Positions 2,988 to 6,694 of a stretch of DNA of 61,062 bases are shown here, one piece after another. A program made the position numbers and the translations under genes. The notes under the pieces were generated by a model. It did no database searches, had not been told where the DNA came from, and saw nothing but the letters and a program-made list of their open reading frames with translations. Source of the stretch: Alphaproteobacteria bacterium. Lineage in GTDB: Bacteria; Pseudomonadota; Alphaproteobacteria; GCA-2731375. Numbering within the stretch: the stretch's first letter is position 1; the number at the start of each line of letters is the position of its first letter. The DNA lies in assembly GCA_021776235.1 (NCBI GenBank), contig JAJFGG010000077.1, positions 1 to 61,062 on the forward strand. The letters run 5' to 3'.

Positions 2988-4064
2988 ATGGCGTCCCAAC
3001 AAGCCCGCATCCATGAGGTTGAAGACGATCCGCTGGCCGCCATCGACTACTGTTACGAGCAGGGCTGGACTGACGGTCTGCCGGTCGTCCCGCCGGATGT
3101 CGCGCGGGTCGAGGCGATGTTGCTGTTCGAAGGCCGGCCGCCGGAAACGGTACTGGCGGCGCATCCGGCCACGGGATTTGAGTGCACCGTTCACGCGGCG
3201 GCGGTGAATGCGGTCATGGCGGGTTGCAAGCCGGAATATTTCCCCGTCGTCGTCGCGGCGTTCGAGGCAATGAACGAGCCAGACTTCAACTTTCACGGCT
3301 CGACCGCCAGTACCGGGGGCTCGGCGCCTTTGCTGGTGGTCAGCGGGCCGGTTATCGACGACATCGGCATGAACGCCGATGTGAACCTGTTTGGCCCCGG
3401 CAACCGCGCCAACGCCACCATCGGCCGCGCCGTGCGCCTGATCCTGATGAACGTGTTCCGGATGATTCCGGGTGTCTCCGACAAATCAACCCAGGGCAAC
3501 CCCGGCAAGTTCAGCTTTTGCATCGCCGAGCGGGCGCGGGGCAACCCCTGGCCCCTGCTGGTCGAGGAGCTGGACTATCCCATGGGCGTCAGCAGCGTCA
3601 CCGTGTTCGCGGGCGGCGGCTTTTGCAATGTGGAGAACCACGGCGGCAATACGCCCGAGATGGTGCTTGGCTCCATCGCCGACGCCATGGCCAACTACGG
3701 TTGCATCACCCTGGGGCAATCCGTCGTCGTGCTATCGCCGGAGCATGTGCGCGTCGTCGCCTCGACCGGCTGGAGCAAGCAGCAGGTACGGGAGTTTCTG
3801 TTCAACCGCGCAGCCCGCACGGTCGAGGGCATGCGCTCCGTGGGCAAATACCGCCAGCGCGAATTCGACAAACAGCACGCCGATGGCGCCAGCCCGCTGG
3901 TCGAGGCTGACAAGATGCACCGGGGTCTCAGCCCCGATGATATTCTGGTGGTCATGGGGGGTGGCGACGCCGGCGGCCATTCCTGTTTCATACCATCCTG
4001 GAGCCGGGGCCGCAGTTCGATCATGCAGTCCAAGCCTATTGGCGTCTGCATCGATTGCGACTGA
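2988..4064 (+). CDS. Conserved protein of unknown function, upstream of the UGSC selenoprotein
   Basis: I do not recognise a named family for this 358-residue soluble protein. It begins with an acidic segment containing EQGWTDGLPVVPP, has a glycine- and alanine-rich core with STGGSAPLLVVSGP, and ends in a cysteine pair (C-I-D-C-D). No signal peptide or membrane span is visible. AGGAG followed by CACTGCC precedes the ATG at 2988, which I prefer to the in-frame start at 2946. Only 44 bp separate it from the selenoprotein gene, so the two are probably co-transcribed. Its terminal CxxC suggests, as inference only, a redox partnership. Confidence 0.75.
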   Translation: MASQQARIHEVEDDPLAAIDYCYEQGWTDGLPVVPPDVARVEAMLLFEGRPPETVLAAHPATGFECTVHAAAVNAVMAGCKPEYFPVVVAAFEAMNEPDFNFHGSTASTGGSAPLLVVSGPVIDDIGMNADVNLFGPGNRANATIGRAVRLILMNVFRMIPGVSDKSTQGNPGKFSFCIAERARGNPWPLLVEELDYPMGVSSVTVFAGGGFCNVENHGGNTPEMVLGSIADAMANYGCITLGQSVVVLSPEHVRVVASTGWSKQQVREFLFNRAARTVEGMRSVGKYRQREFDKQHADGASPLVEADKMHRGLSPDDILVVMGGGDAGGHSCFIPSWSRGRSSIMQSKPIGVCIDCD

Positions 4065-4108
4065 TCCGGCTTTGAACCTATGCGCGCAGCAGCAACGGGA
4101 GACCATGC

Positions 4109-4630
4109 ATGCAACTTTATGACCCGACCGTCACAGGACCCGAGCGGAATTATGCCCGCGCGGCGGCACTCGCCAGCCTGGAGGGCAAGACCATTGGCCT
4201 GTTGGAGAACGGTAAGCTGAACGCCGTCAACATGCTGCGGCAGACCGCGGCGCTGTTCGAGCAGCGCCATGGCTGCACCATTCTGCCCCTCTTCTCGAAG
4301 AGCAACGCCAGCGCGCCGGCGCCCGGCGAAACCATCCAGGCAGCCGCGAACGACGTGGACTTCCTGATTACCGGCCTGGGTGATTGAGGCAGTTGCTCGA
4401 CGTGCAGTTTGCATGACGGCATCAGTTTCGAACAGCTTGGCAAGCGCGCGGTTGTCGTGTGCACGGAACCATTCGAGGTTACGGTCAAAAATATTGCCCG
4501 GATGCTGGGCCTGCCCGACTACCCATTCGTCATGGTCGAGCATCCCATCGGCAGCCGTACTATGCCGGAAATAGAGGCGCTGGCGGAAATTGCATATGAC
4601 CAGGCCCTGCCTATCCTGATGGAAGGGTAA
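4109..4630 (+). CDS. UGSC-family selenoprotein (in-frame TGA at 4385-4387 read as selenocysteine)
   Basis: One frame stays open from the ATG at 4109 to the TAA at 4628-4630 except for a single TGA at 4385-4387. Read through, it gives 173 residues with selenocysteine at 93 in the motif G-L-G-D-U-G-S-C, followed by S-T-C. This matches the UGSC (seleno)protein family, whose name comes from this motif; relatives may have CGSC. Both flanks code well: residues 1-92 contain KTIGLLENGKLNA, and the part after the TGA contains VVVCTEPFEVT and ends in ALPILMEG. A hairpin suited to SECIS function starts 13 nt after the TGA. The function is unknown; a thiol/selenol redox role is inferred. Automatic callers will split it into a 92-residue protein and a 73-residue fragment. 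Sec machinery (selA, selB, selC, selD) is not in the window. Confidence 0.87.
4401..4415 (+). promoter_or_regulatory. Candidate bacterial SECIS hairpin
   Basis: Within the coding sequence, CGTGCA (4401-4406) pairs with TGCATG (4410-4415), including one G-T wobble, around a GTT loop. The loop opens with G about 19 nt after the TGA. A G at the start of the apical loop and this spacing fit the general model of bacterial SECIS elements, which recruit SelB. The stem is short, so sequence alone cannot prove it. Confidence 0.6.
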
Positions 4631-4653: not shown

Positions 4654-5664
4654 CTACGAGCCCAGATGCGGCACCACTTCCTCTGCGAAGAGGGACATCT
4701 GGTCCAGCAACTCCGCCACCGTGTTAACGGCGAAATACAGGCCGAGCAGGTGCGTGACGCCGGCCGCCTTCAGGGCCAGGCATTTCTCCACCACCTCGGC
4801 CGGGGTGCCAACCAGGTTGGCGTCGACCATCGAGATGCCGGCTTGTTCTTTCAACGTCGAGCGGGTCAGTGAGACCAGATGCTTGTGCATCTGACTGCCA
4901 CTGAAGCGTTCGACCGCGCGGTCGTGGTCATGGTCGACCAGGGCGATATATTGCGGCGCCACCGCGATTTCCGTGAAGTCGCGGCCCTCGGCTTCACACA
5001 GTTCGCGCAAATGGACGATGTCGGCGGCGATGCGCTGCAGCGGCAGGCCCGCCGGCAGCCAACCGTCGCCAAGCGTCGCGGTCCGCCGCAGCTGATTGAC
5101 ATTGTTGCCCCCGAAATAGATAGGCAGCTTTTCCTGCAATGGTTTGGGATACAGCTGGACATCGCGAAAGCGATAGAACGCGCCGTCATAGCTTGCCCGG
5201 TCTTGTGTGAACAACAGGCGCAGGGCGCGCACACCCTCTTCGACGATATCGCCGCGATGGCGCTTGTCGTCGGGCAACAGGGCCTCGAACTCCTCGCGAT
5301 AGGCACCGACACCCACGCCCAGTTCCAGCCGGCCGCCACTCAAATGATCCAGGGTGATCAACTGCTTTGCGGTGACCACGATGTCGCGCCGCATGGGCAG
5401 CACCAGAATTCCGGTGCCGAAACGCAGGCTGCAGGTTTGCGAGGCCAACCAGGCGTAGGTCAGCAGGATTTCCCAGAAACGCGGCGGCCGGCCGAACTCC
5501 GCCTGCACATAGTGCTGTGTGGTCATGTGGTCGTTGCCCCAGATCGAGTGATAGCCCAGGGCCTCCGCATGCTGCGCGATGGCAAGCAGGGCCTGGGTCT
5601 CGGAAAATGGGATCGGATAGGTCAGGCCCTCCATGCCCGTGGGAAATCCGACGCTGACGATCAT
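4654..5664 (-). CDS. Luciferase-like (LLM class) flavin-dependent oxidoreductase
   Basis: A 336-residue member of the bacterial luciferase-like superfamily, TIM-barrel oxidoreductases using FMN or F420. Typical segments are SIWGNDHM near the N-terminus, RFGTGILVLPMRRDIV, LDHLSGGRLELGVGVG and YFGGNN. The ATG at 5664 is preceded by GAGGAG; the upstream extension is not typical of the family. The gene follows another luciferase-like gene with only 16 bp between them, so the two form an operon. Substrate and cofactor cannot be read from sequence. Confidence 0.87.
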   Translation of the reverse strand: MIVSVGFPTGMEGLTYPIPFSETQALLAIAQHAEALGYHSIWGNDHMTTQHYVQAEFGRPPRFWEILLTYAWLASQTCSLRFGTGILVLPMRRDIVVTAKQLITLDHLSGGRLELGVGVGAYREEFEALLPDDKRHRGDIVEEGVRALRLLFTQDRASYDGAFYRFRDVQLYPKPLQEKLPIYFGGNNVNQLRRTATLGDGWLPAGLPLQRIAADIVHLRELCEAEGRDFTEIAVAPQYIALVDHDHDRAVERFSGSQMHKHLVSLTRSTLKEQAGISMVDANLVGTPAEVVEKCLALKAAGVTHLLGLYFAVNTVAELLDQMSLFAEEVVPHLGS

Positions 5665-5680
5665 GGCCGCTGCTCCTCTG

Positions 5681-6694
5681 TCATTTGTCCGGGCGATCGC
5701 CCAGGGCCGCCGCCAGGGTCTCGGCCAACATGGCCTGGCCCCGCATCCCGGCAATCACCACTTCGTCCAGACCCGCCTGGCGGTACTCCCGAAGACGCGC
5801 CCGCACCTGCGCCGGCGTGCCGCTGACACTGTGGCGGGCCACCACTTCATCACTGACCAGAGCGGTGGCGCGGTTCCAATCGCCCTTGGCGACGGCGTCA
5901 TACAATGCACCCTGGTCCAGGTCGCTCCCTGCCATCTCCAGGTTTGCCTGATGATGGGGGCCGCGCAGGACAAAGGCCAACAACCGTTTCAAACGCCCGT
6001 AGGCCCGGCCCTCATCTGCGTCAACCGAGGCAAAGACCAGGCCGATGCGGCGCACCTGGCGGCCTTGCGCGGCCTCGGTCATCCGGGCCAACGACCAGCG
6101 CACGAAGGCCACGGAGGTCGCCGCCGACAGCAACACGCCGTCGGCCTGGCGTCCGGCCAGGCGCAGCATCCCCGGCCCAGTGGCCGCCAATACGATCGGC
6201 ACGTCCTGTGGTCCGGTTTCCAGGGCGCGGCCGCTGACCTGAAAGCGTTCGCCCCGGTGCCGTATGGTTTCGCCGGCCAGCAAAGCCCGTGCGATGCCGA
6301 TGCTTTCATCCAGAGTGGCCAACGGCCGGGGCCGGGCAACGCCGGCGGCGTCCAGATCACCCGGCGCACCAGCGCCCAGGCACAGCACCGTCCGGTTGGG
6401 GAAGTGCTCGTTCAGGGTCGCCGCCGCCATCGCGGCCTGCACGGGATGCACCACATAAGGGCTGATCGCCATCAGGGCGGCGCTGACCCGTTCCGTTGCC
6501 GACAGCGCCATTGCGGCCTGCACCACCGGGTCACGCTGAAACAGGTGATTGGCCAGCCACATGGTATCGGCGCCGGCGGCATCGGCCTGGCGGGCCAGGC
6601 CGGGTAAATCCGCCGCCGCCTCGGCGCCCTCGAACGAGACGCCAAGGCCCGATCCCCTCGCCCCATGCCATGGGGTCAGACCCATGGACGGCAC
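5681..6694 (-). CDS. Luciferase-like (LLM class) flavin-dependent oxidoreductase
   Basis: A 337-residue luciferase-like oxidoreductase, first gene of a two-gene minus-strand operon with the related protein behind it. Family landmarks are DTMWLANHLFQRDP, VLCLGAGAPGD and the C-terminal block VSGTPAQVRARLREY, typical of the F420-linked branch. Sequence similarity to its neighbour is low beyond the shared fold, so they are probably not recent duplicates. A start at an ATG nine bases inside (MGLTPW) is also possible. Confidence 0.85.
   Translation of the reverse strand: MPSMGLTPWHGARGSGLGVSFEGAEAAADLPGLARQADAAGADTMWLANHLFQRDPVVQAAMALSATERVSAALMAISPYVVHPVQAAMAAATLNEHFPNRTVLCLGAGAPGDLDAAGVARPRPLATLDESIGIARALLAGETIRHRGERFQVSGRALETGPQDVPIVLAATGPGMLRLAGRQADGVLLSAATSVAFVRWSLARMTEAAQGRQVRRIGLVFASVDADEGRAYGRLKRLLAFVLRGPHHQANLEMAGSDLDQGALYDAVAKGDWNRATALVSDEVVARHSVSGTPAQVRARLREYRQAGLDEVVIAGMRGQAMLAETLAAALGDRPDK

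Follow-up and report, generated by a model that had tools for sequence, protein, structure and literature searches.

A UGSC-family selenoprotein gene and its partner gene: a candidate two-part oxidoreductase module in an alphaproteobacterial draft genome

The window, by which we mean the whole stretch of 61,062 nt analyzed here from an alphaproteobacterial draft genome, carries on its forward strand a gene of the UGSC family (4109..4630) in which the UGA at 4385..4387 is very probably decoded as selenocysteine (Sec93), as judged from sequence comparison. UGSC is already known as a selenoprotein family, and the gene adds one more member to it. Together with an unnamed gene just upstream (2988..4064, + strand), hereafter the partner, it very probably forms a functional pair. 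Our overall reading, to which we give a probability of roughly 0.55, is that the UGSC protein would supply Sec, as a subunit or domain, to a two-part oxidoreductase completed by the partner and recycled by a dithiol.

The UGA codon, its frame and the downstream hairpin

The frame starts at ATG 4109, 6 nt after a Shine-Dalgarno-like GGGAGA (4097..4102, + strand) recognized from the sequence, and runs to the TAA at 4628-4630 with the TGA at 4385-4387 as its sole in-frame stop. A mechanical ORF from this ATG stops at 4387 and yields 92 aa; readthrough yields 173 residues with Sec at residue 93 in the motif U-G-S-C-S-T-C. The same single stop, with one frame on both flanks and U-G-S-C followed by S-T-C, had been described in the original prediction and was found again on re-reading, and the expected splitting of the gene by standard annotation is just what the mechanical ORF does. 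Stop-to-stop mechanical calling would cut all six UGSC genes of the draft genome in this way. The Cys96 codon (4394..4396, + strand) is invariant in 42 aligned UGSC sequences, and Cys96 is likely the resolving Cys of the U-G-S-C motif, as far as the sequence can tell. This invariance was taken from the 42-sequence alignment and not from the 79-gene set described below, because the latter was selected by a motif that contains Cys96.

The protein matched Pfam PF24696 over nearly its full length (residues 3-170 on profile positions 2-170 of 172), with 156.1 bits against a cut-off of 25 and an E of 1.3e-45. Scored with Cys written in place of Sec, it reached 120.3 bits with NCBIfam NF041046, below the equivalog cut-off of 125, and the gene was therefore filed under PF24696 and not under the NF041046 equivalog. 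All 42 aligned UGSC members matched both models. Like the family (PF24696; NF041046), the window protein has the U-G-S-C motif, the UGA codon, the Sec/Cys exchange among its relatives and the near full-length match, and nothing essential differs.

The draft genome (6.36 Mb, 174 contigs, 98% complete) contains six UGSC genes, each with UGA at the equivalent site, of which the five further ones lie on contigs C132, C60, C126, C21, and C98. A search of the taxonomic order covered 15 genomes, all of one family, and returned 93 PF24696 rows. Exactly one TGA was present in 92 of them, and the sole row without a TGA was a 32-codon fragment at a contig start. The codon at the Sec site was also read in 81 UGSC genes, drawn from the best 80 of 572 loci plus the genome's own six copies: it was TGA in 78 and Cys in three (L079, L110 from Mycobacterium gordonae, and L121), the last being homologues of the kind that the original prediction had proposed to look for. 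A 79-gene set left out four fragments that lack the motif (in L041, L120, L111, and L079); the Cys forms L110 and L079 failed the motif filter and are outside the 79-gene set and inside the 81-gene set. For the hairpin, 77 genes were used, omitting L121 (Cys) and the second copy of L075, which is cut at a contig end.

Substitutions relative to the window were then counted by codon position in 20 orthologues, namely those members of L042-L068 that were at least 45% identical on both sides of the TGA. Upstream of the TGA, the counts at positions 1, 2, and 3 were 353, 283, and 570; downstream they were 315, 197, and 774, indicating that the downstream frame behaves as coding. A chance open frame beyond the TGA was ruled out by these counts, the PF24696 match and the 92 of 93 rows.

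A bSECIS hairpin, CGUGCA-GUU-UGCAUG, was assigned by folding and conservation at 4401..4415 (+ strand). Its six pairs begin 13 nt after the TGA and enclose the loop GUU (4407-4409), with GU in the apical position, exactly where a stem with a G-starting loop had been claimed before; in the minimum free energy fold, a lower stem extends to 4430. The 48 nt from the TGA folded at -17.1 kcal/mol (z -2.1), and 4 of 200 shuffles were as good. As a single-sequence fold the hairpin is only modest, and the weight is carried by comparison. Across the 77 genes, the six stem pairs were standard in 97.4% of cells, compared with at most 68% when the 3' arm was slid by 1-6 positions either way. Over the 34 distinct stems, pairing held in 95.6% of cells. 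Column shuffles averaged 83.2% and peaked at 88.2%; none of 2000 reached the observed value, the shuffles taking no account of relatedness or coding constraint. Pair 20-26 was CG in 66 genes and GC in 11, and pair 18-28 was TA in 65, GT in seven, AT in three, and GC and GG in one each. The loop G was kept in 76 of 77 genes, as was the loop U. The loop codon was AGT in 69 and TGT in six of the 77, whereas elsewhere in the same open frames AGC (235) outnumbered AGT (66). The Cys form L121 folds differently in the hairpin region. The window gene has two features of bacterial selenoproteins, an in-frame UGA and a downstream SECIS hairpin with loop G/U, and the proposal of one 173-residue UGSC selenoprotein is supported by the PF24696 match, the conserved UGA and the conserved hairpin.

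Selenium machinery and other readings of the UGA

Profile searches of the draft genome revealed selA (583 bits), selB (414 bits), and selD (382 bits), all above curated cut-offs. selA and selB adjoin on C166, and the selD on C46 carries its own in-frame TGA. There are two selD genes: that on C46 (G000:C46:22266-23192, L031) with the in-frame TGA, and a second on C25 (C25:131418-132335, L032) without a TGA, which lies within a 760-aa open frame and is perhaps a fusion.

A search of the 174-contig draft with Rfam RF01852 yielded no tRNA-Sec; the first look scored 150 of 914 candidates. Eight of nine RF01852 matches were rejected as ordinary tRNAs by ARAGORN (Ser, Ser, Ser, Tyr, Ser, Cys, Phe, and Asp). 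None was found around selAB, selD or the UGSC modules. When the 3.1-kb tRNA-Sec locus of a congener was compared with the draft, the flanking parts alone matched, and ARAGORN gave no tRNA-Sec at two places of the draft tied to that comparison. The expectation that selA, selB, selC, and selD would be present in the same genome was thus borne out for three of these genes and not for selC. Within the family, a tRNA-Sec was found in 13 of the 15 genomes, the two without it being the draft genome itself and G012, and ARAGORN called a tRNA-SeC with anticodon TCA in all four loci tested. Because the 13 include all 10 congeners, an assembly gap likely accounts for the missing gene. In G006:C209 and G011:C171 (L127, L123, L141, and L142), the tRNA-Sec lies ~80-95 nt upstream of a match to the partner-UGSC pair on the same strand, as if tRNA-Sec and selenoprotein module were one unit.

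The missing tRNA-Sec and the mechanical ORF that terminates at 4387 would both fit a UGA that is a true stop followed by a relic of a frame, be it a pseudogene, a sequencing error or simple termination. Such a stop should not be shared by 92 of the 93 rows from the 15 genomes and by 78 of 81 compared genes, nor be followed by a hairpin retained with compensatory changes and by a frame with the codon-position counts given above; in practice, this explanation is refuted and we regard it as extremely improbable. Equally improbable is a reassignment of UGA to Trp or Cys instead of Sec. Such a code, too, would leave the frame open, but the partner gene itself terminates in TGA and the draft genome has selA, selB, and selD, two facts that refute the reassignment in practice. 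The conserved hairpin after the TGA also speaks against it, and so does the exchange with Cys codons seen in three of 81 genes. Decoding of the UGA as Sec is therefore retained in what follows.

The partner gene and the dithiol additions

The partner gene (2988..4064, + strand) lies on the same strand as the UGSC gene, 44 nt upstream, and encodes 358 aa (model pLDDT 91.8). The window partner had no family match in Pfam or NCBIfam, so that its description as unnamed in the original prediction stands; 43 partner relatives gave only scattered weak matches to these databases, in one to three members each (best E 0.012). The alignments took 42 UGSC and 43 partner sequences, L086 being excluded from the latter for a stop in its stretch. 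In the partner alignment, 18 columns are invariant, among them D29, N74, C80, N142, R147, and E181, and, from sequence, the polar ones among them are reminiscent of an enzyme site. No credible match was found among PDB sequences. The top Foldseek match was a class I fumarate hydratase chain (E 3.3e-4, rmsd 16, VIA Z 5.2), which is too poor to trust, and matches to a Toblerone-fold protein and CyuA were weaker; a known enzyme was therefore rejected as the identity of the partner.

The draft genome has eight partner copies, at least one beside each UGSC gene. In the 15 genomes, a partner lay on the same strand at a distance of 29-214 nt for 90 of the 93 UGSC rows, 48 of them with the partner upstream and 42 with it downstream, and the three without one were G001:C73, G008:C263, and G012:C165. 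Conversely, 112 of 117 partner rows had a UGSC gene within 1.5 kb. A query of named genomes with the partner, from which the best 80 of 572 related places were retained, found a UGSC gene within up to 4 kb on either side at 72 of the 80, on the same strand as the partner at 71 of these 72, and none within that distance at the other eight. In C126 and C98, UGSC and partner form one open frame. Tandem partner copies beside one UGSC gene occur in L040 (C21) and L041 (C98), and in C98 the first copy is the one fused to UGSC.

Across 29 loci (the window and L042-L069), relatives of the other ORFs, those overlapping UGSC aside, were found in at most 18 other loci, compared with 85 for the partner, and no conserved third gene that would name a substrate emerged. 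Since no other ORF is widely shared and the adjacency is near-obligate, we take the module to be the pair of partner and UGSC genes. From the common strand, the 44-nt spacing and the near-obligate adjacency elsewhere, we infer that the two genes are co-transcribed. Around the pair, the window also contains an LLM-class F420-type oxidoreductase (4654-5754, - strand) with relatives in seven of the other loci compared, and an alpha/beta hydrolase (2067-2876, + strand) and a rhodanese/3-mercaptopyruvate sulfurtransferase-like gene (1148-2044, + strand) with relatives in none of them.

In the passages covered of the published record, UGSC is among the abundant selenoprotein families of a 2008 ocean survey, with 255 Sec and 21 Cys forms (PMC2398784), is one of the commonest bacterial selenoproteins of aquatic metagenomes (PMC2398784, PMC9402790), and appears in reviews of 2022 and 2026 (PMC9312934, PMC13188914). 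UGSC-motif selenoproteins also occur in genomes whose tRNA-Sec anticodon is CUA (PMC5330540). The ocean survey further describes a UGSC domain fused to a Cys-bearing conserved domain, 'Unknown_1' (PMC2398784). This resembles the present case in that UGSC is fused to a conserved Cys domain; it is reported there as a fusion, whereas here the partner is mostly a separate gene beside nearly every UGSC gene. Unknown_1 is probably the present partner. No function for UGSC is given in the passages covered of PMC2398784, PMC13188914, PMC9312934, PMC5330540, PMC5029168, PMC9402790, and PMC7539508, and no title on UGSC function was among the literature matches listed. Set against those passages, the published descriptions gain the link to the partner, the dithiol additions and the similarity to selenoprotein B. 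The partner, the natural fusions, the dithiol tail found in some family members and the possible selenoprotein B link offer handles for biochemistry.

The dithiol additions lie on or near the partners. The window partner ends in IGVCIDCD, and its C-terminal CxxC tail (C354-I-D-C357) is encoded at 4047..4058 (+ strand), at the end of the gene. Among the partner copies from the best 80 of 572 places, a GVC[ILV]DC tail was found in 14 of the 28 closest (the window and L042-L068). In all 95 copies the CxxC tail likewise numbers 14, every one among those 28, so that it is missing from the other 14 closest partners and from all remaining copies. Five partners (L080, L107, L110, L111, and L095) have another kind of Cys pair at their ends (CVDGTCEL, for example), which may be an independent dithiol tail. 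The partner on C132 has an N-terminal domain that matched a thioredoxin (6kil_A, E 4.1e-5), and its match to Pfam TraF was below the cut-off. The start of the C60 partner resembles that of the C132 partner and has CPTC, and no Pfam match was obtained for it. On C98, the gene after the partner pair matched thioredoxin reductase (E 6.8e-49) and has CAFC. The set recalls a thioredoxin/thioredoxin reductase relay, with a thioredoxin-like domain fused to a sister partner and a thioredoxin reductase-like gene beside another module, whereas the window module itself has only the C-terminal CxxC tail of its partner. The tail, the thioredoxin-like domain and the thioredoxin reductase-like gene suggest that a dithiol may re-reduce a Sec93-Cys96 bond.

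Fold, resemblance to selenoprotein B and proposed mechanism

The AF2 model of the window UGSC protein (pLDDT 93.6, pTM 0.87) has alternating strands and helices, with Sec93 immediately before the helix 94-108, and we read the modeled fold as Rossmann-like. Its best structural neighbors by VIA were a designed protein (Z 10.9) and 8s7v_H of the methyl-coenzyme M reductase activation complex (Z 10.4, rmsd 3.1, 132 aligned), followed by many common alpha/beta chains near Z 8. No thioredoxin was among the 50 matches listed by Foldseek or VIA for this model.

Sequence profiles of part of the family point to selenoprotein B. At E ≤ 0.01, 15 of the 42 UGSC proteins matched TIGR01917 (glycine reductase selenoprotein B; best 2.2e-6) and the other 27 did not; nine matched GrdF (best 9.3e-7), seven TIGR01918, six GrdH, and two PrdB. 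The window protein had no selenoprotein B-type match at E 0.01. Besides the selenoprotein B types and the UGSC models, only three families were matched by the 42 proteins, by one member each. The longest span placed UGSC 49-155 (107 residues) on positions 301-402 of the GrdF profile (L096). In a rescan by bit score of 10 of the 42 proteins, three matched Grd-type families and one PrdB, with best scores of 23-28 against cut-offs from 65.45 (TIGR01918) to 800, far below membership in GrdB or PrdB. Alignment by hhalign of the 42 UGSC proteins with 20 PrdB-like selenoproteins from the draft and sister genomes gave, per single comparison, E 8.4e-5 and 1.7e-4 (probability 60 and 49). The two Sec residues aligned in register in both directions, and two control comparisons gave E 0.28 and 0.31.

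GrdB and PrdB work with further subunits, including a pyruvoyl partner subunit (PrdA/GrdE), and the usual hosts of glycine and proline reductases are amino-acid-fermenting clostridia. UGSC resembles selenoprotein B (GrdB, GrdF, GrdH, and PrdB) in the weak profile similarity of the Sec domain, the Sec in register and the UxxC motif. It differs in that the match is confined to the region around 292-407 of the 431 positions of the GrdB profile, and the 43 partners had no PrdA/GrdE-type family match in Pfam or NCBIfam. Instead of such clostridia, the hosts at the best 80 of 572 places were for the most part Alpha- and Gammaproteobacteria, Chloroflexi, Rokubacteria, and other groups. A remote kinship of UGSC and selenoprotein B, judged on these alignments, is likely but not proven.

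Under our overall reading, the partner would bind the substrate and supply invariant residues such as D29, C80, N142, R147, and E181. Sec93, at a helix start in an alpha/beta (Rossmann-like) domain, would make a nucleophilic attack in the manner proposed for selenoprotein B of glycine/proline reductase, and would end as a selenenylsulfide with Cys96. A dithiol would then re-reduce this bond: perhaps the CIDC tail of the partner in the window module, and elsewhere the N-terminal thioredoxin-like domain (in a sister module) or the thioredoxin-reductase-like neighbor (in another). For dithiol recycling of this kind we see even odds, lowered from a somewhat better chance because the tail turned out to be present in just 14 of the 28 closest partners. 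Substrate reduction resembling that of selenoprotein B, in place of plain disulfide or peroxide chemistry, is possible but falls short of an even chance.

The UGSC protein could instead be a plain thioredoxin-type thiol/selenol-disulfide oxidoreductase or a peroxidase, with the partner as its protein client or scaffold. The UxxC motif and the thiol redox parts nearby agree with this, and two publications call UGSC proteins Trx-like (PMC2398784, PMC13188914). Against it stand the Rossmann-like order of strands and helices in the model, best structural neighbors that are alpha/beta chains (Z 8-11), the profiles of some UGSC members that point to selenoprotein B, and the invariant polar residues of the partner that resemble an enzyme site. 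On balance, we consider the thioredoxin-type explanation less likely than the two-part oxidoreductase.

In a further, tentative reading, the UGSC and partner proteins might represent a new class of selenium-dependent two-subunit reductase, in which an evolutionarily cut-down selenoprotein B would be joined to a new substrate-binding subunit. Recycling would fall to a dithiol tail, to a fused thioredoxin-like domain or to a thioredoxin reductase. Such a class would be spread over Alpha- and Gammaproteobacteria, Chloroflexi, Rokubacteria, and Acidobacteria, with a Cys form in Mycobacterium. If this is true, the substrate to be reduced may be a small molecule, and the reaction may lie outside amino-acid fermentation.

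The search for selenoprotein B relatives also touched other genes of the draft genome. Nine of its rows matched the Pfam GRDB profile (PF07355, at E 1), none of which is a UGSC gene, and the arrangement around the TGA was read at C50. Together with this gene (L154, G000:C50), the PrdB-like genes of L147-L166 halt at a TGA that is followed in frame by P-x-C-(T/H/C) in 20 of 20 loci. These genes are probably a second selenoprotein group that is cut short by plain gene calling.
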